A stretch of 37,500 nucleotides of DNA from the NCBI GenBank assembly GCA_030141605.1, contig JAQGDQ010000140.1, positions 32,501 through 70,000 of the forward strand, in the 5' to 3' direction. This document shows, piece after piece, positions 1,235 to 35,465 of the stretch. The notes under the pieces are model-generated. The model had not been told where the DNA came from. It was given only the letters and a program-made list of their open reading frames with translations, and ran no database searches. The translations under genes and the position numbers were made by a program. The stretch's first letter is position 1. Every line of letters starts with the position of its first letter. The stretch comes from Tubiluchus corallicola. Lineage: Eukaryota; Priapulida; Priapulimorpha; Priapulimorphida; Tubiluchidae.

Positions 1235-1297
1235 CAATTGCGATGACTGCTGCTTTGCAAATGCTGAGCGAGTTCTGGAACAGTACTTAGTGTTCTT
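1235..1297 (-). CDS. Exon 35: HxxH half of finger 13 (beta type)
   Basis: 63 nt, phase 2 to 2, flanked by a TTACAG acceptor and a GTACGT donor on the minus strand. It completes the CLSC half from exon 34 and reads LRTLSTVPELAQ-HLQSSSH, an exact CX2CX12HX5H finger. The last two bases (TG) plus one from the missing next exon would make W or C, as in exons 15 and 23. This is the last exon visible; the gene continues past the left edge. Confidence 0.85.
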
Positions 1298-1984
1298 CTG
1301 TAAGATTGACAATGTAAATTAGTGTCCATTTCAGTTTATAAAGCGTAGAAAAAATGTATAATATTAAAAATATTTTAAGATACTTAAAAATGTAGACTTA
1401 TTTGAAATTTGTTTCGAATAATGCTGTTGGGTCGTAGGAAAATGGGTTGCTTTGTTACAAAACAAGTTACTGAAATTTTTTTTCAGTTTTATGCACAGAA
1501 AATTTCAATTCATGTCCACTGATATCTGAGCAAGATTGCAAGGTTTCAAACTACAGCAAAAAAAGAAAAACCAACATTTCGAATACCCGCCTTTCTCCAT
1601 TTAGAATGAAGACCTCAATTAACGCTCAAATTTTTAGCAAAACAAAATATCCATATGAGCAAATTTATGGTACTGATGCACATCGTTATAACGCACTATA
1701 ATGTTAACTGTTTTGCGGCCCCAAAGTTCACTGTATAAAGAGGTTTGTCTGTAATTCAAATAACAACAGACAATCAACCGACATAGAATGAAGTCTAGAA
1801 AGTGCTACGTTAGTAAAGAATTAAAAACCTATTGTTGAATTCAGTACAAGTGTGGAAGTAATTAAGATCGCCTTTTCTTTATTCAAAACACAACGCTAAA
1901 CAAGGTACAGAGCAACAAAAATGATGCGCAATGCTGCATGTGAATTTGGTATGTTCGAACCTAAGTTAAATGGTGCTAAACGTG

Positions 1985-2360
1985 TCTAGTAAACCTTTTC
2001 ACAATTTCGTTGCATGCAGCGCAAGTTGCTGCAGGTCAAAGGTTAAGTGTACCACAGCAACCCGTATCTTAACAACAGCTGTCATGATGTGACATGTGTG
2101 TAAAGCAAAGCCGCCTGCTGCATCAGTTCAGCAACTTCAATTGTTTTACGCGGACTTTTCCTATTTATACATTAGTCAGTGCTATGTATTACTAGCAGGG
2201 TCATGCTTGGGAACTAGAAAAATTAACTAGGCAAGGCTTCCGCTAGCTATTAAAGTTGTTACTATTACAATAGCTTGAGCTGCGAGGCGTTATCTGGTAC
2301 ACTTAACCTTTGACCCTTTCACAATCATCATCAATTGCTGGAACTGTGAAAAAGCTTGTT
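1985..2360. mobile_element. Foldback/MITE-like element with perfect 21-bp inverted core
   Basis: The 21 bases at 2035-2055 (GGTCAAAGG...GTACCA) recur as a perfect reverse complement at about 2295-2315. Weaker inverted similarity (CTTTTTCACA-like) extends the arms outward to about 1985 and 2360. The enclosed 240 bp has no coding capacity. This is typical of a non-autonomous foldback DNA element. The ends and target-site duplication are not clear. It sits in the intron between exons 35 and 34. Confidence 0.6.
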
Positions 2361-2685
2361 GTACTATGCAACTTACAATATGTGCTACACTGTATGAATT
2401 ATACAAATTGCATACTTAGTTTTATGAAAAAAGCTTAGGAGAGCGGTTTCTGCACATGTGTATGTAATAAAGGTGAGAGAGAAGCATTTAGTTAGGTAAA
2501 GTAATAATGCTTTATTACACCAGGTGGTGCAAAAAATGTCACTGATATTCGAATCATGATATTTATCTACTTAGCACCTGATTAGTAAAATGCAAGCACT
2601 AGTATTGCGCAGTTGCGTAATTCGTAAAAATTAATGTACATGTGCTGGCAAAAATAGAAAAATTCAATAAATAAGTTGTACATAC

Positions 2686-2753
2686 AGGCAAGACAGGCAC
2701 TGCCTCTTTTCCACATCAACACAGAACTCTATCTTAGTGCCGTCCCACTTAAA
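2686..2753 (-). CDS. Exon 34: CxxC half of finger 13 (beta type)
   Basis: 68 nt, phase 0 to 2, acceptor TTTCAG, donor GTATGT. It encodes FKWDGTKIEF followed by CVDVEKRQCLSC. The (D/N)GT(K/M)(I/V)(E/D)F...V motif before CLSC is shared with exon 14 (ENGTKVEFRVN) and exon 22 (NDGTMIDFRVN), marking these as duplicated copies. The intron falls directly after the second Cys of CxxC, as in every finger of the gene. Confidence 0.9.
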
Positions 2754-3011
2754 CTGAAATGTCAAAAAAGCCAGTATAGAAAACAAGTAGAGATATAGCA
2801 TTACCTAAAATATTAGAAAAATACAAGGTTTTTTGCCGATCTTCCGAAAAAAAGTCCGTACAAAAAATAAAAAATGCCCAATTGCACATTTGTTAGAAGA
2901 GATAGAGGAAAAGCTAGCTCTACAATAAAAAATCTAGAAAGGCATTGTCAAAAACTTTTATATTTTTTCAAACCGAACATTGTCTCTGACAAGTCTATGG
3001 TCAAGTAAGTG

Positions 3012-3290
3012 ACAATAATAATAACAATAATAATAATAATCTTTATTTAAAGTCGGCTTTTGGGTCAACAATTCACATTAGCTCAAAGAGCTATTATCGC
3101 CAACTGTAAATAACAACCTACAGCTGCATAACAGAGACTATTATTAGCCGACTTTTACTCTAAATACCACGCGTCAGGCAGGGCAAAGCAGGTACCATTT
3201 TAAGTCTTTGGTATGACTCGGCCGCTGGTTCGAACTCACGACCGCCTAGATGGAAAGCAGACGCATCACCACTAGACTAAACCGTCTGAT
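3012..3290 (-). mobile_element. tRNA-derived SINE with (TTA)n tail
   Basis: On the minus strand the element starts near 3290 with a tRNA-like head. An A-box-like TTTAGTCTAGTGG is followed about 40 nt later by the B box GAGTTCGAACC (near 3228-3240). About 200 bp of unrelated body follows, then a tail of ATT repeats at 3014-3042. This is the standard layout of a pol III-transcribed SINE. It lies in the intron between exons 34 and 33. Confidence 0.75.
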
Positions 3291-3402
3291 ACGTAGTCTG
3301 ATCCAGCACACGACAATTTTGATACAGAAAAAAGTCAAAATTAGAAGCAAATATGAGTAATTTTTAAGAAATGTTGTCTATATTATACATAAATGAACTT
3401 AC

Positions 3403-3439
3403 TTCCCCAAAACATTTCTGTTTAGCTAACATGTCTTTC
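3403..3439 (-). CDS. Exon 33: linker after finger 12
   Basis: 37 nt microexon, phase 2 to 0, acceptor TTGCAG, donor GTAAGT. With the split codon it reads V-KDMLAKQKCFGE, matching exon 13 (KDMLSKDQCIE) and exon 21 (RDTLAKEQTLK). These linkers always follow an alpha-type finger. It is too short to be found by ORF length; the call rests on the paralogy and on phase continuity. Confidence 0.85.
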
Positions 3440-3540
3440 CTGCAAACAAATAAAAAAATGTCAAAATAATGAATTCAATTGTGAATGCAAAGCGCAAATG
3501 GTAGTAATCTTAGACAATTCATATGGCTTCATATTATGTA

Positions 3541-3765
3541 ATTATTCAATTATTCAATCATTAATTATTATTCAATTATTCAATCACTAATTATTATTCA
3601 ATTATTCAATCAGTAATTATTATTCAATTATCCAATCATTAATTATTATTCAATTATTCAATCAGTAATTATTATTCAACTATTCAATCAGTAATTATTA
3701 TTCAATCATTAATTATTATTCAATTATTCAATCAGTAATTATTCAATCATTCATTATTCAATTAC
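3541..3765. repeat. 26-bp AT-rich minisatellite
   Basis: Roughly eight to nine imperfect tandem copies of a unit built from AATTATTATTCAATTATTCAATCAGT or close variants, some with internal deletions. It is intronic, between exons 33 and 32. Confidence 0.9.
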
Positions 3766-3996
3766 GTAATGATTTTGATTATAGAGTCATAAATAAAACC
3801 AATTTTCAAAAGTAGGGTTTCCAAGACTGTATTGAATACAGCATGTTCTCCATTCATTTGTCAAACTAGTCTCATGACATTTGAGTTAATTTGTTGAATT
3901 AAAAACCTAATTTTGACTCACTAAACGTAAAAGACTTTTCTCAAAAAGCTAGATTGCTTGCTTGGTGTTAATGAGAGCAAAAATGACATTACTCAC

Positions 3997-4092
3997 ACTT
4001 TAATTGCAGTCAGGTGTTCGTTACTCGTTAAATGAGGTGGTACAGATAGAAAGAATTGTTCTACAGTGTAGAATTTTCCTTCTCCATAATAG
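3997..4092 (-). CDS. Exon 32: HxxH half of finger 12 (alpha, long loop)
   Basis: 96 nt, phase 2 to 2, acceptor TTGCAG, donor GTGAGT. It completes CKTC from exon 31 with a 20-residue loop ending FYTVEQFFLSVPP, then HLTSNEH. The spacing is CX2CX20HX5H instead of X12. The EQFFLS.P.HL core is shared with exons 12 and 20. I placed the donor at GT|GTGAGT, which keeps phase with exon 33. Confidence 0.85.
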
Positions 4093-4409
4093 CTGCAATA
4101 AACATTATCAGACTAAGAGTGAACACAATTAAGCTAACTAACCAAACTAAATTTTTCCAAAAAAAAACTATATAAACGTTCTAATTTTGGCTAATGATTC
4201 AACCTTTACTTAACCGTCGCAAAAATTGCTGCAAAAAGTTGTTCTTATCAAAATCCTAATAATATAATTTATACTCTAATCGTAGTCATAATCATAATTG
4301 ATACTCTAATCAAAACATGATTAGCTGTGAGTTCGTAATTTAACGTATAATAACCTAAACGTTAAGATTAATAAATAATAAAGTGATATATATCATTTTT
4401 ATTATATAC

Positions 4410-4519
4410 CTGCATGTCTTACACGCATAACAAGCATATCTTAGTTTAAGAATATTAGTCAAGTCCGTCTTTGCAATATTCACTTCCACATCTCCTGCCT
4501 CGCAAGCTTTCCTTATTAG
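4410..4519 (-). CDS. Exon 31: CxxC half of finger 12 (alpha)
   Basis: 110 nt, phase 0 to 2, acceptor TTTCAG, donor GTATAT. It starts LIRKACEAGDVEVNIA and ends CYACKTC. It is the same length as exons 11, 17 and 19 and shares the (I/L)IRKA.E.GDV start with exons 11 and 19. This conservation shows that the alpha CxxC exon is a duplicated module. Confidence 0.9.
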
Positions 4520-5700
4520 CTGAAACGTAAAAAAGTCGACTAATCATCGATTCATAAAACAGGCAAAGACGAAGGCCTAAATGTCTTATGATTGTTCAAT
4601 TTGACACGTTGGTAATATGAAATGGCTCTTGATCATGTTTGATGAAATCAAACGTTATAAATGTTATAATGAAATCTTATTAGAATGGCAGTAGCAGCAC
4701 AGTGCTCAAGTGCTATAGACACAGTGGTGGTTTTAATAAATTTGGGATAAACAGTCCAAAACAAAAGAAAAAAATGGAATACGGTTTAAAGTTGGTTCAA
4801 TCTGCAGGATTTATTTAACAAAAGTGCATACAACTCAAAAAATGCGTTGCACATCACACCCGTCTTGAAAATAATCTTACATTAAGCAGTAAAAAGTTTA
4901 AATAATCAGTAATGGTTAATTACATATGTTCACTACGAGTATTACCAGAAATGTATAAATGAAATTTCACGAATTCTCGCTTCTCAATATTCTTCTTAGC
5001 TATCACAACAGCGACTTTTATTCCGGCATAAACGTACATATTTAACATGTTAGCATAGTTGCATGACGTAGTTGAAATAAATGACAGGTTATATATCCAT
5101 ATTCATTTTTAACGCACACTGGAAACAACAACAGCAATAATTATGCGTGTCATGGATGAGCTCTTGAGAAGGGAAAGTAAGACTACTTGGTGCAAAGTAA
5201 ACTCGAAAACGATAAATTAAAGTTGAAGAAACGTTAGTTTTATTTAGTTGAGAGAAAATATTGCAACCATATTAGTGGAAGCAACGAAGTACTGAATTGA
5301 ACAGAACTAAAAAGGGGGGACTAGTAAAAAAACTGGCTTCGCTTATATATAAGTGAATTCATGAAACAGGGGCGCAGCGTGTCAAATTCTTCACGCCATT
5401 CCCCTCCTTGACAAGTAGTGCTTAACTTAAGCCTTATCAACTAACTGTTATCATCTTAAAAGTATGTTTTAGCAAAGCTCCTACCACAGAATTAGTATCC
5501 GTGACAAAACTTTAAATTTTGCAAAACATCGTACATTTGAAAAAGCTAATGAAATTACAATTCGCTAGAAATTTCCGAAAGCTCAGGATAAACTTTTGAA
5601 TGAAAACAGTTTTAAAATTGCGTGAAAGTTATTACAGTGACATTTCAAATTTAATTTTTCAATGAATATCAAGATGATGTAAATTTTCTTCTTAGTTTAC
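4520..5700. other. Intron, no gene recognised
   Basis: This is AT-rich intron between exons 31 and 30. I found no exon fitting the gene's phase pattern, no recognisable transposon ends and no RNA gene. Confidence 0.5.
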
Positions 5701-5726
5701 ATCCAGTGGGCACAGCTTTGTGATCG

Positions 5727-6086: not shown

Positions 6087-6168
6087 ATGGATTTTCCTAT
6101 TTCAAAATCATAAAAAAACATAAAAAACTTCTATCTAAATTGAAAGAAACCTGTACAGTCGAACATAC

Positions 6169-6214
6169 CTCTGACAAATTGTAATTCTTGCAAACATTCA
6201 AGACTCTAAATGTT
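6169..6214 (-). CDS. Exon 30: linker after finger 11
   Basis: 46 nt, phase 2 to 0, acceptor TTTCAG, donor GTATGT. With the split codon it reads RTFRVLNVCKNYNLSE. It occupies the position of the beta-type linkers (exons 10, 16, 24) but is shorter and diverged. It is weaker than its neighbours because little sequence is shared; phase and splice signals support it. Confidence 0.65.
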
Positions 6215-6336: not shown

Positions 6337-6352
6337 CCACACATGCACACAT

Positions 6353-6581: not shown

Positions 6582-6644
6582 CTACTATTGTGTGCAAGAG
6601 ATATATTGTGTTTTGCCAAATGCCCTTTCGATGCAAAACACTTC
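6582..6644 (-). CDS. Exon 29: HxxH half of finger 11 (beta type)
   Basis: 63 nt, phase 2 to 2, acceptor TTATAG, donor GTAAGT. It joins CVSC from exon 28 to give LKCFASKGHLAK-HNISLAH, an exact CX2CX12HX5H finger. It is the same length (63 nt) as exons 9, 15, 23 and 35. Confidence 0.88.
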
Positions 6645-7715: not shown

Positions 7716-7783
7716 AGGCATGAGACACAAGGATGCATGTCTTCATCAGTGGTAACCTGCTGCATTTCCCCATCTTCCATTGC
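7716..7783 (-). CDS. Exon 28: CxxC half of finger 11 (beta type)
   Basis: 68 nt, phase 0 to 2, acceptor TTGCAG, donor GTATGT. It encodes AMEDGEMQQVTTDEDM followed by HPCVSC. It shares a DG near its start with exons 22 and 34, and ends with CxxC at the same intron position. It follows a gamma finger and precedes an alpha finger, so it is an extra beta unit outside the alpha-beta-gamma order. Confidence 0.85.
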
Positions 7784-8177: not shown

Positions 8178-8589
8178 CAGGGGTGTGCAAACTGCGGCCC
8201 GCGGGCCACTTGTGGCCCGCCGAGAGATCTTGTGCGGCCCGCGAAGAGGTTTGTCAACGTAATGAAAGTGTGGCCCGGGCAATCCAGTTGAAGTCTGCGC
8301 CAATATCGCAAAGATAGTGCGGGTAGTTTTTTCCTCTAAATCGGATGGCATTAACCCTTACAAGACTGTTGTCACTTAATGTCACTGTCGGACATGACGA
8401 AATATATGGTTTTTAATATAAATTTTAATGACTTCTAAAATAGTTTCTTGAGTGTAGTAGTGATGATGTGCGCAAATCGGATGCAAAAAAAATCGTTATT
8501 AGGTCCTACTATACTTGGCTCCTCAGGAATGCGCGCAGGAATTGCGGGAATGTTTAATGTGGCCCGGCTAGATAATTTGCACACCCCTG
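8178..8589. mobile_element. hAT-type non-autonomous DNA transposon
   Basis: The left end is CAGGGGTGTGCAAACTGCGG and the right end is TTTGCACACCCCTG, forming terminal inverted repeats of about 15 bp. Flanking 8-bp sequences ATGTAGAC (8170-8177) and ATGTAGAT (8590-8597) match at 7 of 8, as expected for a hAT target-site duplication. The interior is GC-rich near the ends (GGCCCGC motifs) and has no transposase. It is intronic, between exons 28 and 27. Confidence 0.88.
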
Positions 8590-8754: not shown

Positions 8755-9560
8755 ATACTGTAATGTAAAATTTATTCATATACCACATTACATCATTTAA
8801 AATCTCAGCATGTTGGAGAATAAAATACATTTAAAATTCATAAGAAGCAGAAAATTTAAAAGACATTAAAAATAATTCATCATAAAAAGTACAATTTTCA
8901 GTTGTTTGGTGGTTGAGAATATGTTTGATTTTTCCAATTTTCCACAAAGCCAATGATGCTGACCGACTAAGGTTTGCTACACGGTTTGACATAGTACAAA
9001 AAGTGTCAAAAGACACTCCAAGATTTTTTACAGTACAAAATGAGTCAAAAGATACTCCCAAGATGTTTTACAATCTCAAAAGAACTAACACTGACATCAT
9101 CAATCTCTACAAAACATGGAGGGAGATCAGGAAAAGCTCCTTGAAATTTAGTCAACAAATGAACTAAGTCTGTTTTGCCATCATTTAAGGCGAGTTTGTT
9201 GATCTTCGTACGATGTCGAATTTCACTGATACATGCTTCAATTTAATCGACTGGAGCAATGTTCTCCTGACATGTGATGTAGAATTGTGTGTCGTCAGCA
9301 AATTATGACTTAAAATGACAGATTCTACATAAACAAAATAATACAGGACCAAAAACTGAACCCTGATGAACCCCACATACTAGTGTTAAACATCTGATGC
9401 CATTGAATGAACGTGAACAGGCTGACTTCGCGCACATATATAAGATGTGAACTAATTTAAGGCAACATCAGAGATGCGGAACATTAGCTGTAACCTCTAC
9501 AGCAAGATATTATGGTCAATGGTGTCAAAAATGGCGGATAATACCACATGTACAAATTAC
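8755..9560 (-). pseudogene. CR1/L2-like LINE fragment, reverse transcriptase, decayed
   Basis: Several frames on the minus strand contain reverse transcriptase blocks in the right order: SAIFDTIDHNILL (about 9503-9541), GVHQGSVFGPVLF (about 9335-9375), FADDTQFYITCQ (about 9270-9305), then LGVSFD...MSNRVANLSRSASLAL.KIGKI (about 8920-9060). These are typical of the CR1/L2/Jockey group. Stops and frameshifts separate the blocks. The LGVSFD...FCT segment is locally duplicated. The 3' UTR (about 8755-8890) matches a second copy at 13078-13283. Confidence 0.85.
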
Positions 9561-9748: not shown

Positions 9749-9782
9749 GTTTGATTTCTTTGCCTTATTCGACTCCATTAAG
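9749..9782 (-). CDS. Exon 27: linker after finger 10
   Basis: 34 nt microexon, phase 2 to 0, acceptor TTTCAG, donor GTAAGA. With the split codon it reads S-LMESNKAKKSN. It has the same length as alpha linker exons 13 and 21 but follows a gamma finger. The call is supported by phase, splice signals and length. Confidence 0.75.
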
Positions 9783-10091: not shown

Positions 10092-10166
10092 CTTTTCTCC
10101 CCATACGGCAAGTTGTGCCAAATCGATAGATGGTAAATCATGTATGGATTAAACCCAAAAGTTCTC
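10092..10166 (-). CDS. Exon 26: HxxH half of finger 10 (gamma type)
   Basis: 75 nt, phase 2 to 2, acceptor TTTCAG, donor GTTAGT. It completes CEMC from exon 25 with QRTFGFNPYMIY-HLSIWH, then NLPYGEK. The spacing is CX2CX12HX4H. It closely matches the start of exon 18 (QEKFGFTLAMIY, HLPVAH, NLPYVEEK), defining the gamma class. Confidence 0.9.
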
Positions 10167-10796: not shown

Positions 10797-10912
10797 TGGC
10801 ACATTTCACAAGTGAACGTCGTGCTAGGAGCGGTGAGCTTGGATACATCGTTGAGTTCATCTTTTGATAAGTTCACACGCCAATGGGCATTCCTTAAGGC
10901 CTGTTTCACCGT
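10797..10912 (-). CDS. Exon 25: CxxC half of finger 10 (gamma type)
   Basis: 116 nt, phase 0 to 2, acceptor CTCCAG, donor GTACGT. It starts TVKQALRNAHWRVNLS and ends TTFTCEMC. The (A/T)(I/V)KQ(S/A) start is shared with exon 17, the other gamma CxxC exon. Confidence 0.9.
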
Positions 10913-12565: not shown

Positions 12566-12632
12566 CATAAGTGAATCAAGGATTGGAGCAACATTAAAAT
12601 TTTCAGCTAATTTATGCAGATAATCATTTACC
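12566..12632 (-). CDS. Exon 24: linker after finger 9 (beta)
   Basis: 67 nt, phase 2 to 0, acceptor TTGCAG, donor GTAAGT. With the split codon it reads W-VNDYLHKLAENFNVAP followed by ILDSLM. It is homologous to exon 16 (W-VVNQLKRMAKEKNVEP, then VLNLFS): same length, same WV start, and N.(A/E)P.L..L pattern. It may form a short amphipathic helix. Confidence 0.9.
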
Positions 12633-13488: not shown

Positions 13489-13551
13489 CATTCACGATGT
13501 TTGGCTCCCTCCAAATGCTTGTACAACTTTGGAACAGATTCGAACTCCATG
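13489..13551 (-). CDS. Exon 23: HxxH half of finger 9 (beta type)
   Basis: 63 nt, phase 2 to 2, acceptor TTTTAG, donor GTGAGA. It completes CFSC from exon 22 with SMEFESVPKLYK-HLEGAKH, then RE and the first two bases of a W codon. It is an exact CX2CX12HX5H finger with the H.(x)G.KHR signature of U1/JAZ fingers. Confidence 0.93.
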
Positions 13552-14270: not shown

Positions 14271-14335
14271 GAGCAAGAAAAGCATTGTTTATGCTTGACG
14301 TTCACTCTGAAATCTATCATTGTGCCATCGTTTGA
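14271..14335 (-). CDS. Exon 22: CxxC half of finger 9 (beta type)
   Basis: 65 nt, phase 0 to 2, acceptor TTTTAG, donor GTAAGT. It encodes SNDGTMIDFRVNVKHK then QCFSC. It is nearly superimposable on exon 14 (VENGTKVEFRVNTETR then DCLTC), with the same length. Confidence 0.93.
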
Positions 14336-14744: not shown

Positions 14745-14778
14745 TTTTAGGGTTTGCTCCTTTGCCAATGTGTCTCGT
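14745..14778 (-). CDS. Exon 21: linker after finger 8 (alpha)
   Basis: 34 nt microexon, phase 2 to 0, acceptor TTGTAG, donor GTAAAT. With the split codon it reads I-RDTLAKEQTLK, homologous to exons 13 and 33. Confidence 0.87.
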
Positions 14779-15129: not shown

Positions 15130-15228
15130 ATTTTTAAGTTAGCTAAGTGATTCCCGCTCTGCAAGTGCGGTCGATCCGAAATAAAGAACTCTTGCGCGCT
15201 GTACCAAACTTCATGCCCGTCGTATTCC
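15130..15228 (-). CDS. Exon 20: HxxH half of finger 8 (alpha, long loop)
   Basis: 99 nt, phase 2 to 2, acceptor TTACAG, donor GTGAGT. It completes CKLC from exon 19 with a 21-residue loop ending WYSAQEFFISDRP, then HLQSGNH and LANLK. The spacing is CX2CX21HX5H. The EFFIS.RPHL core aligns with VEQFFLS.P.HL of exons 12 and 32. Confidence 0.9.
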
Positions 15229-16182: not shown

Positions 16183-16292
16183 CTGCACAGTTTGCACATG
16201 TATTTAGCCTTCTTTAATTTTTCCATCTTAGAATCATTGGATTGTGGCAAGGTTACTGCAACAACACCGCTGTCGAATGATTTGCGTATCAA
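16183..16292 (-). CDS. Exon 19: CxxC half of finger 8 (alpha)
   Basis: 110 nt, phase 0 to 2, acceptor TGTCTAG, donor GTAAGC. It starts LIRKSFDSGVVAVTLPQS and ends KAKYMCKLC. It is homologous to exons 11 and 31 in length and N-terminal motif. It directly follows giant exon 18. Confidence 0.92.
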
Positions 16293-17096: not shown

Positions 17097-19311
17097 CTGA
17101 AATAGTTTCACATCGCTAATTTTTGCTGAAACTTCAGAGGATGGTGGTTTCTCTGTCTTGCTAACGGGAGCAAATGGTTTTACACTGCTTTCAGTTGGTT
17201 TTACATCGGAGCTTGTTTTCACAACAGGAGTTTCCTGGGTGATGACACTTGCTTTTGAATCAAGACTTTCTTTATTGCTACTTGAACCCGCTTTGTTGTC
17301 ATCAGTTCTCTTGACAAGATGCGGGCTACCTTTCGTGTCAAGAGCTTGCTTGTCTTCACTAAAACTTTCTTTTGCATTTTGAGTTCGTCTTTTGTCCTGT
17401 AAAGCTGTTTTATCATCTAGAGCTTGCCTTCCTTCACTGGAGCGTGCTCTACTACCTCGAGCATGCCTTCTTTCATGCGACCTTGCTCTACCATTATGAA
17501 ATTTCCTGCGTTCACGCGAATGCGCTCTTTCACGCGAGCGGCTTCTTTCCTCGTGAGTTCGCCATCTTTCTCGTGAGCCTGCTCTTGTATCTCGTGCATG
17601 TCTTCGTACACTCGAGCCTGCTGTTGTATCCCACGTTTGCCTTTTTTCAATTGAGCCTGATCTTAAATCATGAGCTGCTCTTGTATCTCGAGCTTGCCTC
17701 GTTTCATTTGAGCTTGCCTTTGCTTCATTAGCTCCTTTTCCGACACCAACAATAGCATCATTAACCTTCTTGCGATCTGCTGTTGTTATTTTTCCTGTAG
17801 CAGCTTCCATCTCATCAACAGTAGCTGTTCCAGCTTTAGAATTTTGCTTTTTGTCAGTTACACTTACTGTAAGTTTAGCCACCTTAGTGCCAATTGCACT
17901 TGCAGCAAAATTAGCTGCTTCCTTTGTATCAACCACAATCACTGCAGCTCTAGCCACTTCCATTGTGCCAACTCTGGGAACCCTTGTGTCAACTCCAGGA
18001 ACCTTAGTGTCAACTGCAAGAACCCTAGTGCCAATTGCAGGAACCTTTGCGTCAACTCCAGGAACCTTAGTGTCAACTGCAAGAACCTTTGTGTCAACTG
18101 CAGGAACCTTTGTGTCCACTACAGAAATATTTGTGTCAACTCCAGAAACATTTGTGTCAACTGCAGGAACCTTTGTGTCAACTCCAGGAAGCTTTGTGTC
18201 AACTCCAGGAACCTTAGTGTCAACTGCAAGTACCTTTGTTTCAACTACAGGAAGCTTTGTGTCAACTACAGGAAGCTTTGTGTCAACTCCACTCCCTGCA
18301 GTTGTAGCCACTTCCTTTGCACCAACTGCACATGTCACAAATTTAGCCACTTCCTTCTGGTCAACTGCATTCACTGCAGCTTTAACTACTTCCTCTGTGC
18401 AATCTATACCCCCTCCATCTTTAGTTAATTCCTTTGTATAAGTTCCAGTAGCTTTAGCCATATCATTTGTGCTAATTACATTTCCTGAAAGTGGTTTGAT
18501 GCAAGTTGCCACTACAATATCCACTCGCTGAGTTCTTTGCAGTTCTGTTACGTTAGCAATCAATGGAACTTGTCTTGCATCACTTGGTGCTATTTGCCTC
18601 GAACTGTCCGCAGAATCAGCAACTGGATTAGTGTCCGTTTCATCAATCAGATTCTCCGATACAAATTTACTACCTCTTGTAAAAATTTCTGGAAAAGCAG
18701 TGTCTAAAACAGTATCAACTGCGTCATCAACTCCTTTCAAAGAACCAGCATTCGCAGCAGCCACACTAGTGCCACCAATTGTTTTCAAATCAGTAACATC
18801 ATCAACTATTTTTACAACGTTAATACTTTCCACGTCATCCATCGGTTCTGCGCCACTACTACTGGCTGCAACATCTTTTTGTTCTGCCGTTGTTTCATCT
18901 ACTTGTTCCAAAATATCCATTGAAGCAGTTACCATGTTGGTGGGCTTAGCATCTGCCGCTTGGTTGGTCACATTGGTTACCCTGGTTACCCTGGCAGTTG
19001 GTTGGATGACAATCAGATTACTACACCTAGGTTTTCTACCAACAGTAGAAGGAGCGGTGTTTGCATTAACGCCGAGTGCTTCAATAGGTTTTGAACTGGT
19101 TGCAATCATTTCAGTGCCTTTAGTACTAGCAGTGATCACTTCAATGGATTTATCAGCAACTGCAGCATTTGTCCCAGTACCTACAGGTTTAGTTTTTTCA
19201 ACAGGTACATTTTCATAGCAAATGACGATTTCTTCTTTTTCCTCTACATAAGGCAGGTTATGAGCTACGGGAAGGTGGTAGATCATTGCTAAAGTAAATC
19301 CAAATTTCTCT
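17097..19311 (-). CDS. Exon 18: gamma finger half plus 738-codon low-complexity domain
   Basis: 2,215 nt, phase 2 to 0, acceptor TTTCAG, donor GTATTT. It opens by completing CSLC from exon 17 with QEKFGFTLAMIY-HLPVAH, then NLPYVEEKEE. A long region rich in Thr, Val, Ala, Asp and Lys follows, without recognised domains. It contains 15 tandem VDTKVPG-type heptads flanked by related VD.KE(V/A)A.F segments. A basic RS/RE tract comes next (RSRSRERAHSRERRKFH and neighbours), then Ser/Lys-rich sequence ending in DVKLFQ. The whole is probably disordered. In cassette terms it is an HxxH exon fused to a hugely expanded linker. The methionine in MIYH is internal to the finger, not a start. The open frame runs 45 nt past the donor to a stop; the donor keeps phase with exon 19. 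Confidence 0.88.
17963..18290 (-). repeat. 21-bp coding minisatellite (VDTKVPG heptads)
   Basis: Within exon 18 a 21-nt unit is repeated about 15 times in frame, coding VDTKVPG, VDTKLPG, VDTNVSG, VDTKVLA and similar heptads. The exact multiple of three keeps the frame open. Copy number may vary between individuals. Confidence 0.95.
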
Positions 19312-19607: not shown

Positions 19608-19717
19608 TGGCATAGCGAACATGTGTACTTTGCCAATCGTATCTTATCGAAATCAATTTCTTCACTTTCATCTAAGTCTGTGACCATGTTGCCTTTCTGT
19701 ACAGATTGCTTTATTGC
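19608..19717 (-). CDS. Exon 17: CxxC half of finger 7 (gamma type)
   Basis: 110 nt, phase 0 to 2, acceptor ACGCAG, donor GTAAGT. It starts AIKQSVQKGNMVTDLDES and ends LAKYTCSLC. The AIKQS start parallels TVKQA of exon 25. It feeds into the gamma HxxH half at the start of exon 18. Confidence 0.92.
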
Positions 19718-20535: not shown

Positions 20536-20602
20536 TGAGAAAAGATTGAGGACAGGCTCCACATTCTTCTCTTTAGCCATCCTTTTGAGCTGGTTGACAA
20601 CC
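20536..20602 (-). CDS. Exon 16: linker after finger 6 (beta)
   Basis: 67 nt, phase 2 to 0, acceptor TTTTAG, donor GTAAGT. With the split codon it reads W-VVNQLKRMAKEKNVEP then VLNLFS. It is homologous to exon 24. Confidence 0.92.
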
Positions 20603-22054: not shown

Positions 22055-22117
22055 CACTTGCGATGTTTGATTCCCTTCAGATGAGCTACGAGTTCGGGAA
22101 TATTTGCAAAACTTTTC
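22055..22117 (-). CDS. Exon 15: HxxH half of finger 6 (beta type)
   Basis: 63 nt, phase 2 to 2, acceptor TTCCAG, donor GTAAGT. It completes CLTC from exon 14 with LKSFANIPELVA-HLKGIKH, then RK and the first two bases of W. It is the best textbook CX2CX12HX5H JAZ/U1 finger of the gene. Confidence 0.95.
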
Positions 22118-22993: not shown

Positions 22994-23058
22994 AGACAAG
23001 TTAAGCAATCCCTTGTTTCCGTATTCACTCTAAATTCTACCTTAGTCCCATTTTCAAC
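22994..23058 (-). CDS. Exon 14: CxxC half of finger 6 (beta type)
   Basis: 65 nt, phase 0 to 2, acceptor TTTTAG, donor GTACGT. It encodes VENGTKVEFRVNTETR then DCLTC. It matches exons 22 and 34. Confidence 0.94.
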
Positions 23059-23697: not shown

Positions 23698-23731
23698 CTC
23701 TATACACTGGTCTTTTGACAACATGTCTTTA
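23698..23731 (-). CDS. Exon 13: linker after finger 5 (alpha)
   Basis: 34 nt microexon, phase 2 to 0, acceptor TTGTAG, donor GTAAGT. With the split codon it reads T-KDMLSKDQCIE. It is homologous to exons 21 and 33. Confidence 0.9.
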
Positions 23732-24111: not shown

Positions 24112-24228
24112 GTTTCCAAGTTTGCGATGTGACTTTCGCAAACTAAATGAACCGGTGATGACAAGAAAAATTGTTCAACATCACAGTAAGCGCTTTCATC
24201 AGATCCCAATTTTTTGCTCCCAAAAATA
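24112..24228 (-). CDS. Exon 12: HxxH half of finger 5 (alpha, long loop)
   Basis: 117 nt, phase 2 to 2, acceptor TCTTAG, donor GTAAGT. It completes CKVC from exon 11 with a 27-residue loop ending YCDVEQFFLSSPV, then HLVCESH and IANLE. The spacing is CX2CX27HX5H, the longest loop seen. Two extra Cys residues in the loop and the HxxH segment could be alternative ligands. Confidence 0.9.
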
Positions 24229-25605: not shown

Positions 25606-25715
25606 CTGCAAACTTTGCAGAAAAAGCGTCCCTCTCTAAGACGGCTCATATTAGTGACCCGAGTTGGTGGTACGTCTGTTTTCACATCACCACTTTCAAT
25701 TGCTCTCAGAATTAT
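25606..25715 (-). CDS. Exon 11: CxxC half of finger 5 (alpha)
   Basis: 110 nt, phase 0 to 2, acceptor ACGCAG, donor GTATGG. It starts IILRAIESGDVKTDVPPT and ends EGRFFCKVC. It shares (I/L)I.(R/K)A.ESGDV with exons 19 and 31. Confidence 0.93.
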
Positions 25716-26299
25716 CTGCGTGAAAAATGGAAATGTGAGCAAACAAATACCAGATTTTAGCTCCAAGTTTGGAGTTAGAGAAAGTCTCACACACAAAATC
25801 AACAATTTCCCTAGGATAACAAGCAAACAATCAGTAAACATTAAAACTGATGTATAAAAGGTTCACTAAGTCAGCTATCTATAAAAAAAGTTGTCAGTAA
25901 AGCAAGGCGTCATTAAGTCCTATATTAAGTGTTACAGAAAGTTAACTAGAATACATGTTTATTTCCTATTATTGTCAAAAGTACAAGATTTTTTAATGCA
26001 TGTTAATATAACAGAAATAACGCATATTAATTGATAAAAAACAATGTTGCGTTTTTATTTTATTTTTTATCACTTTAAACATTTGTAAGGGCAACGCGTT
26101 TTCAGTTTTTCATTTTTCTTCGAATGTTTTTAAATCTTGTAACTTATGAAATTTACTTTGCATGTGAACAGGTTTCATCTTTTTGATTAGGAATGCCTTC
26201 AGCTTCTACAAATTCTTTGGGTGACTCTGGATATAAGGTGTCACCGTTTCTGTGGCAAAAGATACTTCGTTTAAGTCCCTGGACTGAGTCCAGTCCACT

Positions 26300-26395
26300 A
26301 GTATTTTATCACCATAATACGGCTTCAGGCTATCTATGTGAACTACTTTAGGACTAGATTTAGAATACTTTTGAATTTTGAACATGAGGACTGAT
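26300..26395 (-). pseudogene. Ty3/gypsy integrase C-terminal fragment
   Basis: The minus strand reads VLMFKIQKYSKSSPKVVHID followed by SLKPYYGD. This matches the KVVH.D.LKPY end of gypsy-type integrases. No upstream integrase core, RT or LTR is nearby, so it is a short relic. It is intronic, between exons 11 and 10. Confidence 0.75.
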
Positions 26396-26399
26396 GAAT

Positions 26400-26512
26400 G
26401 AATATGAGAAACATTCAATAAATTCTGGTAAATTTTTTTGTTCTTACTTTTAGATGCCTCGACAATGAACAGCATTGGTCGAAACCGGTCGGCAATAAAT
26501 TCCATTTAAGCA
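26400..26512. repeat. Single copy of the foldback arm module
   Basis: About 110 bp similar to the arms of the foldback element at 15855-16115. Shared blocks on the minus strand are AATGGAATTTATTGCCGACC, GGTTTCGA, TGTTCATTGTCGAGGCATCT and AATTTACCAGAATTTA. It directly abuts the gypsy integrase fragment. Confidence 0.75.
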
Positions 26513-26570: not shown

Positions 26571-26634
26571 CCTAAAAAGATTATCAGTCATCGGTATGCC
26601 CATAGCTTGACTAACTACTAGCACCCTCTCTTGT
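26571..26634 (-). CDS. Exon 10: linker after finger 4 (beta)
   Basis: 64 nt, phase 2 to 0, acceptor TTCTAG, donor GTAGGT. With the split codon it reads R-QERVLVVSQAMGIPMTD then NLFR. It shares VV near the start and NLF(R/S) at the end with exon 16. Confidence 0.85.
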
Positions 26635-26983: not shown

Positions 26984-27046
26984 CTTTCACTATGCTCTTT
27001 TGTGTTTTTATGCTCGATTAAGGCAAGATTGGTCGCAAAGTACTTC
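26984..27046 (-). CDS. Exon 9: HxxH half of finger 4 (beta type)
   Basis: 63 nt, phase 2 to 2, acceptor TTTTAG, donor GTAAAA. It completes CYCC from exon 8 with LKYFATNLALIE-HKNTKEH, then SE. It is an exact CX2CX12HX5H finger. Confidence 0.92.
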
Positions 27047-27769: not shown

Positions 27770-27805
27770 ACTTACAAGCAACAATAGACTTACAAGCAAC
27801 AATAG
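27770..27805 (-). repeat. 18-bp tandem duplication of a splice donor
   Basis: ACTTACAAGCAACAATAG occurs twice in perfect tandem (27770-27787 and 27788-27805). Each copy carries the GTAAGT donor of exon 8 on the minus strand. Use of the distal donor would add 18 in-frame nucleotides beginning with a TAA stop, so the proximal one is taken as functional. Confidence 0.9.
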
Positions 27806-27843
27806 CAAGGCCAACTTCCACAGGCAATGGATGCATCACTATC
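27794..27843 (-). CDS. Exon 8: CxxC half of finger 4
   Basis: 50 nt, phase 0 to 2, acceptor TTTTAG, donor GTAAGT. It encodes DSDASIACGSWPCYCC. It is shorter than the other CxxC exons. It is Cys-rich, so the ligand pair is ambiguous; CYCC fits the finger spacing. Confidence 0.85.
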
Positions 27844-28039: not shown

Positions 28040-28459
28040 CATCCTTCTGTCTCAGAAGACAATGGAGTGTGCGCCAAGAGAGTCAGTTATTGATCAACTG
28101 ATGGAACTGCAGTGTCGACTGTGGCTGAGCAGTGCAATCCTTTAACGTCTCCAGGGCACACGCCTGGGCAAGGTGTATGGAGGTCCTGAGTTGCCCAGAC
28201 AACAGGAACCCCCTCTCTTCCTCGCTCGTGTAGTCCAAAGGAAAGCGGAGCAATACATTTGGCACCAGGTTGGCTGCAGGAGCTGCCGGAGTCAGTGAGC
28301 ATGCTGCACTGGTCCGTCTTCGGGGCTCCACTCCTGATTTGGAAAATCTACTTCTCTATACATGGCTGTAGGGTCACTTGACCTTCTCCGCCCTCTAGCC
28401 GTTGGCTGCTTGTGCAGCTCCTCCGCCTAGTGTCGAGATACAGTGTGGGCATCCCGCAA
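28040..28459 (-). mobile_element. GC-rich body linked to 5S sequence (5S-derived SINE candidate)
   Basis: Immediately downstream of the 5S sequence, in the 5S transcription direction, lies about 420 bp that is far more GC-rich than its surroundings. No T-run terminator separates the two. Open frames of 71-82 codons inside it have no recognised domain. The layout resembles SINE3-type elements (5S head plus body), but boundaries and target-site duplication are not defined. A linked rDNA fragment is an alternative. Confidence 0.5.
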
Positions 28460-28575
28460 GCCTACAACACCTGGTATTCCTAAGCGATCACCCATCCAAG
28501 TACTAACCAGGCTCTATGCTGCTTAACTTTGGTGATCAGACGAGAACTGGTGTTTTTAACATGATTTGGTCGTAG
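28460..28575 (-). rRNA. 5S rRNA-like sequence (about 116 nt)
   Basis: The minus strand starts CTACGACCAAATCATG and contains CCAGTTCTCGTCTGATCACC, AAGTTAAGCAGC (A-box region), GGTTAGTACTTGGATGGGTG (C-box region) and ends TACCAGGTGTTGTAGGC. These are diagnostic metazoan 5S segments and the internal pol III promoter looks intact. The central CATAGAGCC replaces the usual GTCGGGCCC. No TTTT terminator follows. It is probably a 5S-derived retroelement head or pseudogene rather than an active gene. It lies inside the intron between exons 8 and 7. Confidence 0.85.
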
Positions 28576-28890
28576 TGTAAAAACACAGTAAGTTTCTAAT
28601 ACAACTAATGAATCACACTTAATGTGAACTAGAATGAAGTAGTTGACATATTTAGCTGATAGCCAGTATCCACAGTTAAGCAACAATAAATCTGACATAT
28701 GCCTGAATGAATTCTGTGACATGTCAAATAATATGTCGACATGTCAAACAATTTTACTAATATACTTCCTATAAAACATATACTTTTCCCTTTGAGGATT
28801 ATTATTCCACAGAGGACTCTAATGAAGAAATGAATATATCATACCACCACAACTAACGGCGTTAAATTTTTAAAAATAAATAACTACTAC

Positions 28891-28963
28891 CTTGTGTCCC
28901 TTTTCTGTATCTGCCTCATCACCATTTCCCAGTTTTTTCTGACGTAGGTTTCTCATGATGGCA
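28891..28963 (-). CDS. Exon 7: linker after finger 3
   Basis: 73 nt, phase 2 to 0, acceptor TTTCAG, donor GTAGTA. With the split codon it reads N-AIMRNLRQKKLGNGDEAD, then TEKGHK. It sits in linker position but is diverged from later linkers. Confidence 0.78.
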
Positions 28964-29359: not shown

Positions 29360-29416
29360 TTTTGACGATGAGACAAGGTCAACTCGTGCTCTGAAACTGG
29401 CATATTATGACTCCTC
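29360..29416 (-). CDS. Exon 6: HxxH half of finger 3
   Basis: 57 nt, phase 2 to 2, acceptor TTGCAG, donor GTAAGC. It completes CHIC from exon 5 with LRSHNMPVSE-HELTLSH, then RQ. The spacing is CX2CX10HX5H, two residues short of canonical. Confidence 0.85.
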
Positions 29417-30272: not shown

Positions 30273-30340
30273 AAGCAAATGTGACAGTATGTCGGAGTGC
30301 CCGATTCCTCTGTGACGTCATGCACTTTTGCTTTTGCTGC
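30273..30340 (-). CDS. Exon 5: CxxC half of finger 3
   Basis: 68 nt, phase 0 to 2, acceptor TTTCAG, donor GTAAGC. It encodes AAKAKVHDVTEESGTPT followed by YCHIC. The intron falls right after CxxC, as elsewhere. Confidence 0.87.
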
Positions 30341-30824: not shown

Positions 30825-31140
30825 TCAAAAAACTTTCCATGCAAATCTATATTACTTAGCATTTCACTTACCTGCTGGAAGACTTATGTAACTAGACTAA
30901 TAATTTAAAATGTTTTCACCAATTGGTAAATGTCGCTGACTCACCCTCCAGGGTGCGCCACTCACTAGCCAAAAACGTATTTTTAATCTTATTCACAAGA
31001 TACAGTAATTTAAAATTTTACTTAATTAGCAACATGTATGCTACGGATGCTCTGATTATTTTTTCAAACTTTACTTAATGTTATCAAAACTTGTTTCAAA
31101 CAACCTACGATTAAAATGGCTACGCCTAACGGTCATCACG
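30825..31140 (+). repeat. Dispersed repeat family, copy 2
   Basis: This is the same unnamed repeat as 19885-20215, in the same orientation, with moderate divergence. It is intronic, between exons 5 and 4. Confidence 0.75.
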
Positions 31141-31305
31141 GGAGTTTAAATTTACACGTTTTATACAGCGTTTCGGCCGATTCAAACCATGTATACGAAA
31201 AGGCAGTACGTAGATGGTATAAAATGGCGAGACAAATTTTTTAAGCTTTATGTAAGTGGAGGGTTTTCTTGTACTTTAATATTTAAAAAATGCTAGCATA
31301 CTAAC

Positions 31306-31333
31306 CGCCTCTGTTTGTGTCGTGTATGTTACA
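31306..31333 (-). CDS. Exon 4: candidate linker microexon after finger 2
   Basis: 28 nt, phase 2 to 0, acceptor TTTCAG, donor GTTAGT. With the split codon it reads N-VTYTTQTEA. There is no sequence similarity to other linkers. It is needed to bring phase 2 of exon 3 to phase 0 of exon 5 and fits exactly. This is the weakest exon of the model. Confidence 0.6.
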
Positions 31334-31810
31334 CTGAAAATGAAAATAAAAAATGTTAAAGGACACAATTCACGATGCATCATAAGTTGACTTTACAAAA
31401 CAGGATATAACTAAACAGGCATTTCAAAAAAATGTTTTAACGGTGTTCTTATAATTATGAACATTGGTTGACTTCTAAAAATGTTTTGCAGACGAACTGT
31501 TCTAAGTAGCCAAAACAAAAATTTTTAAACATATTTCAATGGAGGACCTATGACTTAGGATATATACACTTGCTTAATCACATGAAAGTATTGTATAAAA
31601 AAGAAGTATATATTAGTATTAGCCACATAGTATTTTTGTATTCATAAGTGTATTTTAAAATTTTATATGGAAGCAAGCGATCTAGTGAAAAAATAAAACT
31701 TTATTAATGTACAGATCATTTAATCTCTTGTTAATATTGACAGATATGACCATTATGGTTATTTAAAATGGAATTTCAGAATTAAAAAGAATAAAGGAAC
31801 AAAGACTTAC

Positions 31811-31876
31811 TTCGTTTCGTGTTTTGCTGCCATATGCTGCTGCAAACTAATCTCATCTTTAAACTCTTTCTTTGAA
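31811..31876 (-). CDS. Exon 3: HxxH half of finger 2
   Basis: 66 nt, phase 2 to 2, acceptor TTCTAG, donor GTAAGT. It completes CIFC from exon 2 with SSKKEFKDEISLQQ-HMAAKH. The spacing is CX2CX14HX4H, a variant C2H2 finger. Confidence 0.85.
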
Positions 31877-32015
31877 CTAGAAATGAAAAACAAGGCTTTT
31901 ACGTAAGATTTAAGTTACAAAACAGCAGTATTTTTTGTGAACTAAGGCACACAATATTTTTACAAACACAATACAAAGCTTTTTATTGGTTGGCCACCAT
32001 GAAAAATAGACTGTG

Positions 32016-32090
32016 ATGATGGCTGGGGAATACACATGCTCGGTAAGCTGAAAGTCCCTAGATCAAATCTAAGTAGTGTTAAAACTTTTT
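32016..32090 (+). mobile_element. Possible tRNA-derived SINE head
   Basis: The plus strand reads GATGGCTGGGGAATACACAT, GCTCGGTAAGCTGAAAGTCC and CTAGATCAAATCT. This resembles a tRNA D-arm to T-arm region, with a B-box-like AGATCAAATCT. The stems are poor, so only a degraded SINE or tRNA pseudogene is proposed. Confidence 0.4.
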
Positions 32091-32488
32091 TTGCGTTTCA
32101 CATTCTTCAAATCTGATTTAAAAAGATTCTATTAATTATCACGTTGCATCGTCATCAGATTACTACTATTTAACAAAATTTGTTAGAAAAGCAGGGCTGA
32201 TTCCGTTTGGACAGTTGTGAAGGGACCTGAGTTTGACTCAGTTTCAAGGTCATATCTCCAAGACAAAACACTAAACAGTCAGAAGTGTCTTTCAGGCGTG
32301 AATGGGCTTCTTCCCTTTGTGAGGTAAACATCCTGAATTAATATGGGGAACAAAATCTATTGGTAGTCAAAAGTTACCAGTCTTGGTTGCTGTGGCAGTA
32401 TCCAAGCACACGCCATGATTACTCGGTTATTTTCTTTGCTCAACAAGCTTATCAAATTACAACATTATACGAGTGATCGTATTCGTAC

Positions 32489-32902
32489 CTGCAGAATATG
32501 CACCGCATTTTCAACAATGGTGACGCCGCTGCAGCGTCTTTACCTTCCTCAACCGTCTTTGCATCCACATTTTCATTTCTCTTTTCGGGTGTTCCATTGC
32601 GCCGACGTTCTCCGGACGGGCTGCGTTTGGATCTGCCACGTGGAGATTTGCTGCGGTGACGAGACCTGACTGGTGACCGGCTATGTCGCGTACGGCTCCG
32701 GGATCTGCTACGCCGACGTCTGTTTCTGGATCGACTACGTCGTCGTGACCTGCTATGTCTGACAGGTGACTTGCTCCTCCGTGATCCGATCGGTGAAATG
32801 CTCCGTCTTGGTGATGAAATACTACCGTGTCCACCACATCTCTCCGAATTACGGGTCTGACAGGAATGGGAAAAATATGCAGATTTGTACTCAAAATTCT
32901 TC
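32489..32902 (-). CDS. Exon 2: finger 1 end, SR domain, finger 2 CxxC
   Basis: 414 nt, phase 2 to 2, acceptor TTACAG, donor GTACGA. It completes CGVC from exon 1 with RKNFEYKSAYFS-HSCQTRN, a degenerate finger with Asn in place of the last His. An SR domain of about 60 residues follows, including SRSRRRSRSRNRRRRSRSRS, then SRSPVRSRHRSKSPRGRSKR. Acidic/basic linker sequence leads to MRCIFC, the start of finger 2. It fuses an HxxH exon and the next CxxC exon without an intron. A different frame gives a 142-codon open frame with no RS content; the phased SR frame is preferred. SR domains typically mediate contacts with splicing factors. Confidence 0.9.
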
Positions 32903-35154
32903 CTGTAAAAGAAAAATTCTTCTCCATTTCTACCCTCAATTTAAGAATTGAAATTAAAGTTCAAGCATCAAAATTAAAAACACATATTTCATATTAAAAA
33001 AGAGATCAAAGACAATAACATTTTAAAATTTTTTATAACGCTAACAATAACCATTTCACAAGTGATCCACTGCATAGTAACTTTTATTTCATGTTCATTT
33101 AGAGAGGCCAATGTTTGTTCGTTTTTGTTTTGATCCGAATTTTACATATTTTAAATGATTCTTTGTTTACTGAAGATAATTTGCAATGGAAACGTTGGAT
33201 TTTCCTAATAACAATATCATATAATAAATATGAAATCCTGTTATTTCCTACTTATGATATCAAAAGCAATATTTTGAGGTTGCACCAATTACATGATTAC
33301 TAGCTTGCAATGCTACCTAGTAGCACATATGTTATATAATTAAAACAAAAAATGTCACTGACATCAGCAATGTGGAGTCTGTCAATCGACTATCACTTCA
33401 ACTGACTCTCACTTCTGACTCCTGGAGTCCTCAAAATTGTGACTTCCGCTTGACTCTTGACTTTTAGGATTTAAAACAACTCAACCAGTTCTTATGAATC
33501 TCGTATTAAGTATGAATATTGTTTAGCATGTATGATTAAGGGCGGACAAAGACGAAAACAACATTTATTTAGGAATATTTTAACCAGGGATGTTACCGAA
33601 ACGAATATTTCATTTCGGTTTGCTGATAATTGCACTTTTGGTTTAGTTTCGTTTTCGTCGAAAATTTTCAAGCTTCGTAGCCGAAACTTTCGGTCATTTT
33701 TCTGTAACATTTTTCCCAGGTTTTACTAGTATTTATCCAGCTTACCTTTTTTTCTGCTAAATGTCAAAACTGTTGTAAAATTTTGGTTAAAATAGTTCAA
33801 ATAAAGTGTAACTAATGTAACATGCTTTTTATAAAAATGCAGCATATCTTCAGTGCTGACGACTGCACAGCTTGAAGGGTCTCCAGGCAAAATCAATGTG
33901 TAATTTGAATTAAATCAAGTTTAATATTATATTTCATGAAATATAGGCAACAAAATATTTACAAGATTAACTTGTAATAAACGTTGCTTTACTTTTTTTT
34001 TGGTTAGGATTTTTTGCTTATCTATTTCAATCAAGTTTGCATCACAGCAAATATAAGCAAACAAGCAAAAACAAAGTATTTTATTTATTTCAGAAATTTT
34101 CAGTTTTGATAGTAGTTGATTTTGCAAAAATGATTTAGCTTCAGTTTTGTTTCCATATTCGTTTCCGATGTTCCATAAATTTCGGTTTCGGTTTGAGTTC
34201 TGAGTTCAATAAACTGCTTGTTGCTTCTTGCTGCTTTAAGAAATAAACTAACAGATTACAACCAGAGAACTATGTCATGTGAGCATCGTGATGTCTGCTG
34301 CTAAATTTGTAAACACGAATAAAGCCTTTTACGTACGAAGCATGTATGACAATAACTGCCACTGTTACTCTCACTACTAATGATCTAGATCATAATTAAG
34401 GAAATTTAGTAAATGTGTTATGTAAAATAAATGACTTATGGCTTTAGAAAAAAAAGTTTGAGAAAAAAACAATCCATAGAAAGTTACGTAAACAAACTTA
34501 CAAAGTTACTTTAAAGTTTATGAATATTTACTGATAGATAACAAACAAAACAAGTTTGACACATTATTGTGAAAAACTTGTAAGTTATTCTGTCTAAGAA
34601 GTTCACTGTTATTTTTTTATGTTTTTTTTAAATTTTAGCTTTAGTTTTACACAAAATACTGCTACACTGTCTTAAAATGTAATGTTTTAGGCAGGAGTCA
34701 GAGTCAGTCAGGTATTTTCCATCTCCAACTCTTATCCAGAATTAACTTATCCCGACAGACCGACTTCACAATCGTGATATAAACACTACACTATGAGTAA
34801 AGACATTATTCAATCCAGAAATATCTAAGTTACTACTGTACAGATTTCTAATTTAACAATGCAGAAACAAAACAGCAAAACAAGCAAAACTTATCTTGCC
34901 TGCTCTGAATTCATACGAGCACAGCTTAACAGTTCAAGTTTTGTATAGAGTGTTTGTGAAAGAATGTTTATTGTAAACAATAACAAAAAATGTGTAATCG
35001 AAGCATATAACAACAAACTTTGACATTTATGTTTTGATCAGATGCTTTTCTTTGTCATTATTTGACGTTGAATGAAAAATTCGAAAAAACTTTAGCAGTG
35101 AAAAACGTGAAAATTTAAATTAACGCTTAGAGCATCAAAAATAATGAAACGAAC
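32903..35154. other. Large intron, mostly unrecognised
   Basis: This is the intron between exons 2 and 1. Besides the MITE-like element at 33586-33720, I see TGACTC-rich stretches at 33380-33470 and 34690-34720 and CGGTTTCGGTTT motifs near 34180-34195. The rest is AT-rich sequence with short uninformative open frames. Confidence 0.5.
33586..33720. mobile_element. Short MITE-like element (CAGGGATGTTACCGAAA ends)
   Basis: The left end CCAGGGATGTTACCGAAACG and the right end (reverse complement CCTGGGAAAAATGTTACAGA) are inverted with a small insertion. The interior is rich in TTTCGG-type motifs. Flanking ATTTTAAC and GTTTTACT match only loosely, so the target site is uncertain. Confidence 0.5.
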
Positions 35155-35465
35155 CTGCAAACTCCACAATGGAAAATCTGTTGCCTTGCTATTCTTGCTA
35201 TTCCTGGCTCCATATGCGGGAGTTTTTGTGGCACCGGAGGTGACGATTGCCGTCTTTTTCTTTTCATGCTCTCTCTGACCGTTTCCCTGTACGAGCGTGG
35301 CAGCACATCCGACTTATCATGCAAGCCGCCAGTGTTAAATCTACCGGCAGCTGTCACTTGTGCGTGCCCTGATCGTTTGTACGAGTGAGCAAACTGGGTT
35401 TCCAATTCTGGTTTGCTTTCTATAATGTCAAGTGCTCGTTCCAAATCATGTTCAACGTCCTCGCT
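35155..35465 (-). CDS. Exon 1 (first seen): N-terminal region and CxxC half of finger 1
   Basis: 311 nt, phase 0 to 2, acceptor GCTTAG, donor GTTCGT. It starts SEDVEHDLERALDIIESKPE, a predicted acidic helix. A basic segment follows (ESMKRKRRQSSPPVPQK, possible nuclear localisation signal), then RIARQQIFHCGVC. An in-frame TAG is formed by the acceptor itself, so the true start lies in an upstream exon. I could not identify that exon in 35466-37500. Confidence 0.85.

Follow-up and report, generated by a model that had tools for sequence, protein, structure and literature searches.

A very large, putative zinc-finger gene of the priapulid Tubiluchus corallicola with uniformly split fingers and a nested cassette order

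The window analysed here, a stretch of 37,500 nucleotides (nt) of the priapulid Tubiluchus corallicola (G000:C1797:32501-70000; genome size, 343.5 Mb), most likely covers the 5'-to-middle portion of a single zinc-finger gene that is very large, spliced and protein-coding and lies on the minus strand. Its exons were found by reading the sequence and were then joined by script, and all rows of Table 1 rest on that assembly: 35 exons, running from position 35465 down to 1235, are separated by 34 introns of 296-2252 nt (median 804) with GT-AG at all borders, and together give 1729 codons with 0 stops. The 34 junctions and the 13 finger units of the original prediction, an earlier note made from the letters alone, were thus matched, the latter by 13 CxxC exons, every one of which is left through a phase-2 intron.

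The phase scheme is that CxxC (a) exons run from phase 0 to 2, HxxH (b) exons from 2 to 2 and linker (c) exons from 2 to 0. In all 13 fingers the phase-2 intron at the end of the CxxC exon lies two bases into the codon past the second Cys, so that the fixed phase stands, although the cut is not quite, as proposed, exactly after that residue. As the cassettes are bordered at phase 0, runs of them of any length can be copied or dropped with the reading frame kept. The earlier idea of frame-neutral cassettes and growth by exon blocks is supported; the tolerance of cassette skipping suggested with it is conjectural. Three exons had been expected in nearly all cassettes; the phases agree, but a separate three-exon layout is seen within the window in nine of the 13 (cassettes 3, 4, 5, 6, 8, 9, 10, 11 and 12). 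Among the exceptions, the second half of finger 1, an arginine/serine (RS)-rich stretch and exon 2a are fused in one 414-nt exon (cassettes 1 and 2), exon 7b extends as a single exon of 2215 nt without a separate 7c, and cassette 13 is cut by the window edge, with 13c lying outside. The repeated lengths are likewise largely as proposed, with 110 nt in 5a, 7a, 8a and 12a, linkers of 34 nt in 5c, 8c and 10c and of 67 nt in 6c and 9c, and many further exons of 63-68 nt, but 10a has 116 nt and 12c has 37 nt. Within 7b, a 21-bp repeat (17963-18291, 15.7 copies) is in frame and encodes VDTKVPG-like heptads.

Table 1. Exons of the modelled gene in the window, in the order of the proposed transcript
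Exon	Class	Positions	Strand	Length (nt)	Phases	Remarks
1a		35155..35465	(-)	311	0-2	finger 1 CGVC at its end
1b/RS/2a		32489..32902	(-)	414	2-2	incomplete finger 1 second half, RS-rich stretch, finger 2 CxxC
2b		31811..31876	(-)	66	2-2	
2c		31306..31333	(-)	28	2-0	linker
3a		30273..30340	(-)	68	0-2	
3b		29360..29416	(-)	57	2-2	
3c		28891..28963	(-)	73	2-0	linker
4a	D	27794..27843	(-)	50	0-2	
4b	D	26984..27046	(-)	63	2-2	
4c	D	26571..26634	(-)	64	2-0	linker
5a	A	25606..25715	(-)	110	0-2	
5b	A	24112..24228	(-)	117	2-2	
5c	A	23698..23731	(-)	34	2-0	linker
6a	B	22994..23058	(-)	65	0-2	
6b	B	22055..22117	(-)	63	2-2	
6c	B	20536..20602	(-)	67	2-0	linker
7a	C	19608..19717	(-)	110	0-2	
7b		17097..19311	(-)	2215	2-0	finger 7 second half and long low-complexity insert
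8a	A	16183..16292	(-)	110	0-2	
8b	A	15130..15228	(-)	99	2-2	
8c	A	14745..14778	(-)	34	2-0	linker
9a	B	14271..14335	(-)	65	0-2	
9b	B	13489..13551	(-)	63	2-2	
9c	B	12566..12632	(-)	67	2-0	linker
10a	C	10797..10912	(-)	116	0-2	
10b	C	10092..10166	(-)	75	2-2	
10c	C	9749..9782	(-)	34	2-0	linker
11a	D	7716..7783	(-)	68	0-2	
11b	D	6582..6644	(-)	63	2-2	
11c		6169..6214	(-)	46	2-0	linker
12a	A	4410..4519	(-)	110	0-2	
12b	A	3997..4092	(-)	96	2-2	
12c	A	3403..3439	(-)	37	2-0	linker
13a	B	2686..2753	(-)	68	0-2	
13b	B	1235..1297	(-)	63	2-2	gene continues past window

Fixed exon rules (an open frame, a pyrimidine-rich acceptor, CxxC, two bases and then GTA or GTG) were applied to both strands and to 100 dinucleotide shuffles. 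By these rules 12 CxxC exons were found on the minus strand but 0 on the plus strand (shuffles: mean 0.19, maximum 2), while HxxH exons numbered 10 and 3, respectively (mean 1.46, maximum 5), and ordered a-b pairs nine and 0 (mean 0.03, maximum 1). Furthermore, in a string of 95 kb the two-base offset returned 19 minus-strand exons, whereas 15 other offsets returned 0-5 each; on the plus strand the two-base offset returned 0. With the exon model, the phases and these shuffle controls, the claim that a real gene of repeated split fingers lies here holds.

As to selection, synonymous change exceeds non-synonymous change in seven of eight copy pairs (0.67-0.88 and 0.31-0.43 per site); for the pair of fingers 4 and 11, which with 31 codons is too short, the values were 1.11 (out of range) and 0.42. 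Protein identity between copies is 28-45% and synonymous change is near saturation, so these are no recent assembly duplicates. It is therefore scarcely credible that a decayed or mis-assembled repeat array stands here in place of a working gene: minisatellites and transposon remnants are indeed abundant in the region, but 1729 codons run without a stop or frame break, and the divergence of the copies speaks against duplication by assembly.

When all 13 fingers were compared with one another, with C and H held fixed and with 100 shuffles, 10 of them fell into four classes: A (fingers 5, 8 and 12; z 21.7-26.0), B (6, 9 and 13; z 11.4-19.6), C (7 and 10; z 12.7) and D (4 and 11; z 6.9). Their order in the window is D4 A5 B6 C7, A8 B9 C10, D11 A12 B13, and the exon lengths, given as a/b/c, run with the classes (A, 110/96-117/34-37; B, 65-68/63/67; C, a exon 110-116; D, b exon 63). 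In trees that include the sister loci and the class E described below, A (98/94), C (92/83), E (97/92) and B versus D (97/98) each take one side of a branch, and in a profile comparison the pairs A-C, B-D and C-E exceed the highest of 20 column shuffles. Copying in the window went mainly by blocks, each of at most four cassettes (12 exons), and not by the single cassette of the original prediction: the copies are periodic in blocks up to D-A-B-C, and single-cassette copying is seen in the class-E array beyond the window. Exon 7b would occupy the slot expected for a class-D cassette.

A query made of the A-B-C cassettes matched the contig C2212 of the same genome at two places (E-values 0.001 and 0.06), where exon scan and class scoring point to two putative genes, P1 with the order A-B-C-B-C-E and P2 with D-A-B-C and then an E-type HxxH exon for which no partner was located. 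The sister classes score z 9.4-23.7 to A, B and C of the window and 13.3 to D4. In both loci the B exons measure 65/63/67 nt, as in fingers 6 and 9, the A b exons 99 nt, as in 8b, and the C a exons 110 nt, as in 7a, and the sister D exons b and c measure 63 and 64 nt, as in cassette 4; this agreement in length is partly chosen, since linkers for P1 and P2 were selected for their likeness among a few candidates (none was taken for the A cassette of P2 or for the C cassettes of either locus, and for the P1 A linker a 31-nt alternative exists). P1 and P2 are nearer each other than either is to any window block (95/93 in the tree). Many candidates on this contig fit no class, the joined pieces P2_102, 99, 92 and 89 reaching a highest z of 4.4, and an RS-like open frame lies upstream at 104684-103977. 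Two long open frames, at G000:C2212:134976-139087 (-), adjoin the first P1 class-A exon on its upstream side; they resemble the endonuclease and reverse transcriptase of a long interspersed nuclear element (LINE). A further match of the A-B-C query, at C1000:91787 (E-value 0.77), proved to be an ordinary long C2H2 open frame and was dropped.

On the 3' side the neighbouring stretch carries seven class-E cassettes (E1-E7) of 21 exons with linkers counted (a 83-86, b 60-66 and c 55-58 nt), with no stop and with the phases of the window, and in addition the linker of a preceding cassette. The class-E cassettes are strongly alike (z about 9-21), which indicates that this part grew by single cassettes. 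The run extends to the first bases of the contig C1797, and a class-E query within the genome matched the right end of another contig, C225 (E-value 0.005). That end carries, on the strand to be expected, one HxxH exon with a linker and one complete CxxC/HxxH pair, which adds two more fingers, so that at least 22 fingers (13 + 7 + 2) are seen in part or whole. A weak match of the same query lies at C1248:118768 (E-value 1.47).

It might be asked whether two or more adjacent genes lie here, with a break for example at 7b or before the class-E run. Exon 7b is of great length and low complexity, the gene ends are not located, and part of the sequence that separates the window from the class-E run is unread. 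We consider this rather unlikely, because 7b closes at an in-frame phase-0 donor and 8a opens at phase 0, and because P2 holds D, A, B and C, and after them the E-type HxxH exon (its CxxC partner not found), in that order on one strand. Far less probable still is the repeated and independent insertion of a phase-2 intron at the same finger position. No positive support for it was found; class A against class B does not exceed the shuffles in the profile comparison, so that the classes may not all be of common descent, but the same offset occurs in all 20 fingers of C1797 with a readable CxxC exon (13 in the window and seven of class E), and inheritance with the cassette is the simplest account.

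As to the manner of growth, an array built by single three-exon cassettes, one after another, would agree with the frame-neutrality of every cassette and with the class-E run outside the window, but adjacent fingers in the window differ, and strong matches recur at every third or fourth finger (for example 5-8-12 and 6-9-13), and the orders D-A-B-C and A-B-C are kept in the sister loci; disfavoured already by this class order, it appears improbable. Preferring the copying of blocks, we propose that the four-cassette block was itself probably built from a doubled pair. A pair consisting of a long-loop finger with a long leader and a short finger would have been doubled into a block A-B-C-D, which would then have been copied by unequal exchange between introns into D-A-B-C, A-B-C and D-A-B, one D cassette having disappeared or moved from the place taken today by the 2.2-kb exon 7b, and a C-like cassette may have given rise to the class-E run by copying cassette by cassette.

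With regard to domain families, a broad C2H2 spacing (C-x2-C and H-x3-6-H, with a loop of x12 to x27) matched 11 of the 13 window fingers; finger 3, by reading, fits C-x2-C-x10-H-x5-H, outside the pattern used, and finger 1 is incomplete, the second His at normal spacing being absent. Five of the 13 have the spacing C-x2-C-x12-H-x5-H, which we take to be the U1/matrin pattern. The Pfam scan of the window covered residues 1-608 and 1326-1729, on either side of the 717 residues of the 7b insert. For zf-met (PF12874, cut-off 21.2 bits) these two parts scored 18.1 and 11.2 bits, and the class-E run 11.1; one sister-locus finger belonging to no class passed with 27.5 bits. The earlier suggestion of ZnF_U1 or zf-met fingers is thus weakly backed, the best window score being 18.1 against 21.2 bits. 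zf-C2H2_jaz (PF12171, cut-off 22.6) had no entry in either window piece and scored 20.7 and 21.6 in sister-locus pieces, zf-U1 (PF06220, cut-off 22) was not listed for the window pieces and reached 15.2 in one sister-locus finger, and zf-C2H2_2 (PF12756, cut-off 26.9) gave 24.1 and 15.2 bits in the window and was passed by the class-E run with 33.9. Additionally, at least 20 other zf-met matches above the cut-off occur in other genes on several contigs of the genome (150 of 1116 candidates scored), and, as each lies within one open frame, these other fingers are not split likewise.

Taken together, we regard this anatomy and history of growth as probable, with a function that is put forward below conditionally. 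Several points weigh against it. The exon joins come from genomic sequence, and both the gene borders and the presumed join of C225 to C1797 were placed by position and pattern. Fingers 1-3 fall in no class; the profile links B-E (23.6 against a shuffle maximum of 18.8) and A-E (20.6 against 18.6) blur a clean division into long and short fingers, and A-B, B-C, C-D and D-E do not rise above their 20 column shuffles. In the tree, with its inner branch open, the three window blocks stay ungrouped, so that the copying of blocks may have come before or after the split from the sister loci. The scanned parts of the window gave no Pfam match above cut-off, and no relative outside the genome was found for residues 350-608, residues 1325-1729 or the 480-residue class-E run: the protein searches yielded 523, 2282 and 4720 candidates, none at an E-value of 1 or below, in a database that may hold few animal proteins, so that this negative is weak evidence of absence, and among solved structures the best E-value was 0.42, with none for class E.

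Other elements lie in and near the gene. The intron between 3c and 4a contains a full-length match to 5S rRNA at 28459-28577 (-) (88 bits, Rfam), which may be a gene, a pseudogene or a 5S-derived short interspersed nuclear element (SINE). Between 10c and 11a, reading revealed an element with inverted ends CAGGGGTGTGCAAA / TTTGCACACCCCTG at 8178-8589, presumably a short transposon of the hAT type, as well as remnants at about 8850-9500 (-) that resemble a LINE reverse transcriptase. An open frame read at 26206-26505 (-) is similar to the end of a retroelement integrase. A tRNA-like stretch, also found by reading, at about 3200-3300 (-) may be the head of a SINE; ARAGORN reported no tRNA. Just upstream of exon 1a, at 35811-36750, stands a 55-bp minisatellite of 17 copies.

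The product is most likely a large protein that carries an RS-rich stretch and binds nucleic acid, probably RNA. Fingers of the U1-like kind are typical of RNA-binding proteins, as stated in PMC2889900, and from the U1-like spacing combined with the RS-rich stretch our best guess is nuclear RNA binding, which taken by itself we hold tentatively and not as the probable case. In such a nuclear, multivalent protein the RS-rich stretch would locate it and the different finger classes would contact the target. A bolder and unlikely scenario is that of a nuclear zinc-finger 'ruler', an RS-containing giant of at least 22 split fingers in nested super-repeats, whose frame-neutral cassettes or entire four-finger blocks would be spliced in or out; much as nebulin varies its super-repeats, one gene would then yield RNA-binding surfaces differing in length and specificity. 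The growth of a zinc-finger gene can be read here at three levels, namely exon cassette, pair and four-cassette block, and the sister loci have kept the phases and, for the most part, the exon lengths. Such a gene would make it possible to test how long binding proteins arise from frame-neutral exon blocks and whether a block is spliced as a unit. If our reading is true, it would extend the super-repeat architecture of muscle giants to a nucleic-acid-binding protein.

Proteins with zf-met/U1-like and JAZ-type fingers include ZFR, ZNF346, ZMAT and similar ones. The gene resembles them in that five of its 13 window fingers have the spacing C-x2-C-x12-H-x5-H and a sister-locus finger passes zf-met, but here the loops of classes A and E are longer, all fingers are split, and there are at least 22 of them. 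With KRAB-type arrays it shares many C2H2-like fingers in tandem within one gene; however, KRAB C2H2 domains lie mostly in one exon, 'unlike genes of other families', in the wording of the review PMC5509000, whereas here an intron splits 13 of 13 fingers, each finger takes two exons, and a uniform finger-to-finger linker is absent. The contrast that had been drawn with single-exon arrays is accordingly true of KRAB genes, but, on that wording, splitting as such is not unusual; the unusual trait is the same split, in the same phase, in every finger. A multi-finger protein is a known kind, and the fixed split of every finger and the nested super-repeats are new as far as titles and abstracts of the literature permit, where neither this gene nor a split-finger super-repeat was found described, which leaves absence from print unproven. 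The nearest likeness, in architecture only and not in kinship, is nebulin, whose super-repeats comprise seven modules each, some of them spliced in or out, according to PMC7109182. In both, modules are gathered into blocks of higher order and these blocks recur, but the modules here are zinc fingers and not actin-binding, the block is of four cassettes, and its splicing is hypothetical.

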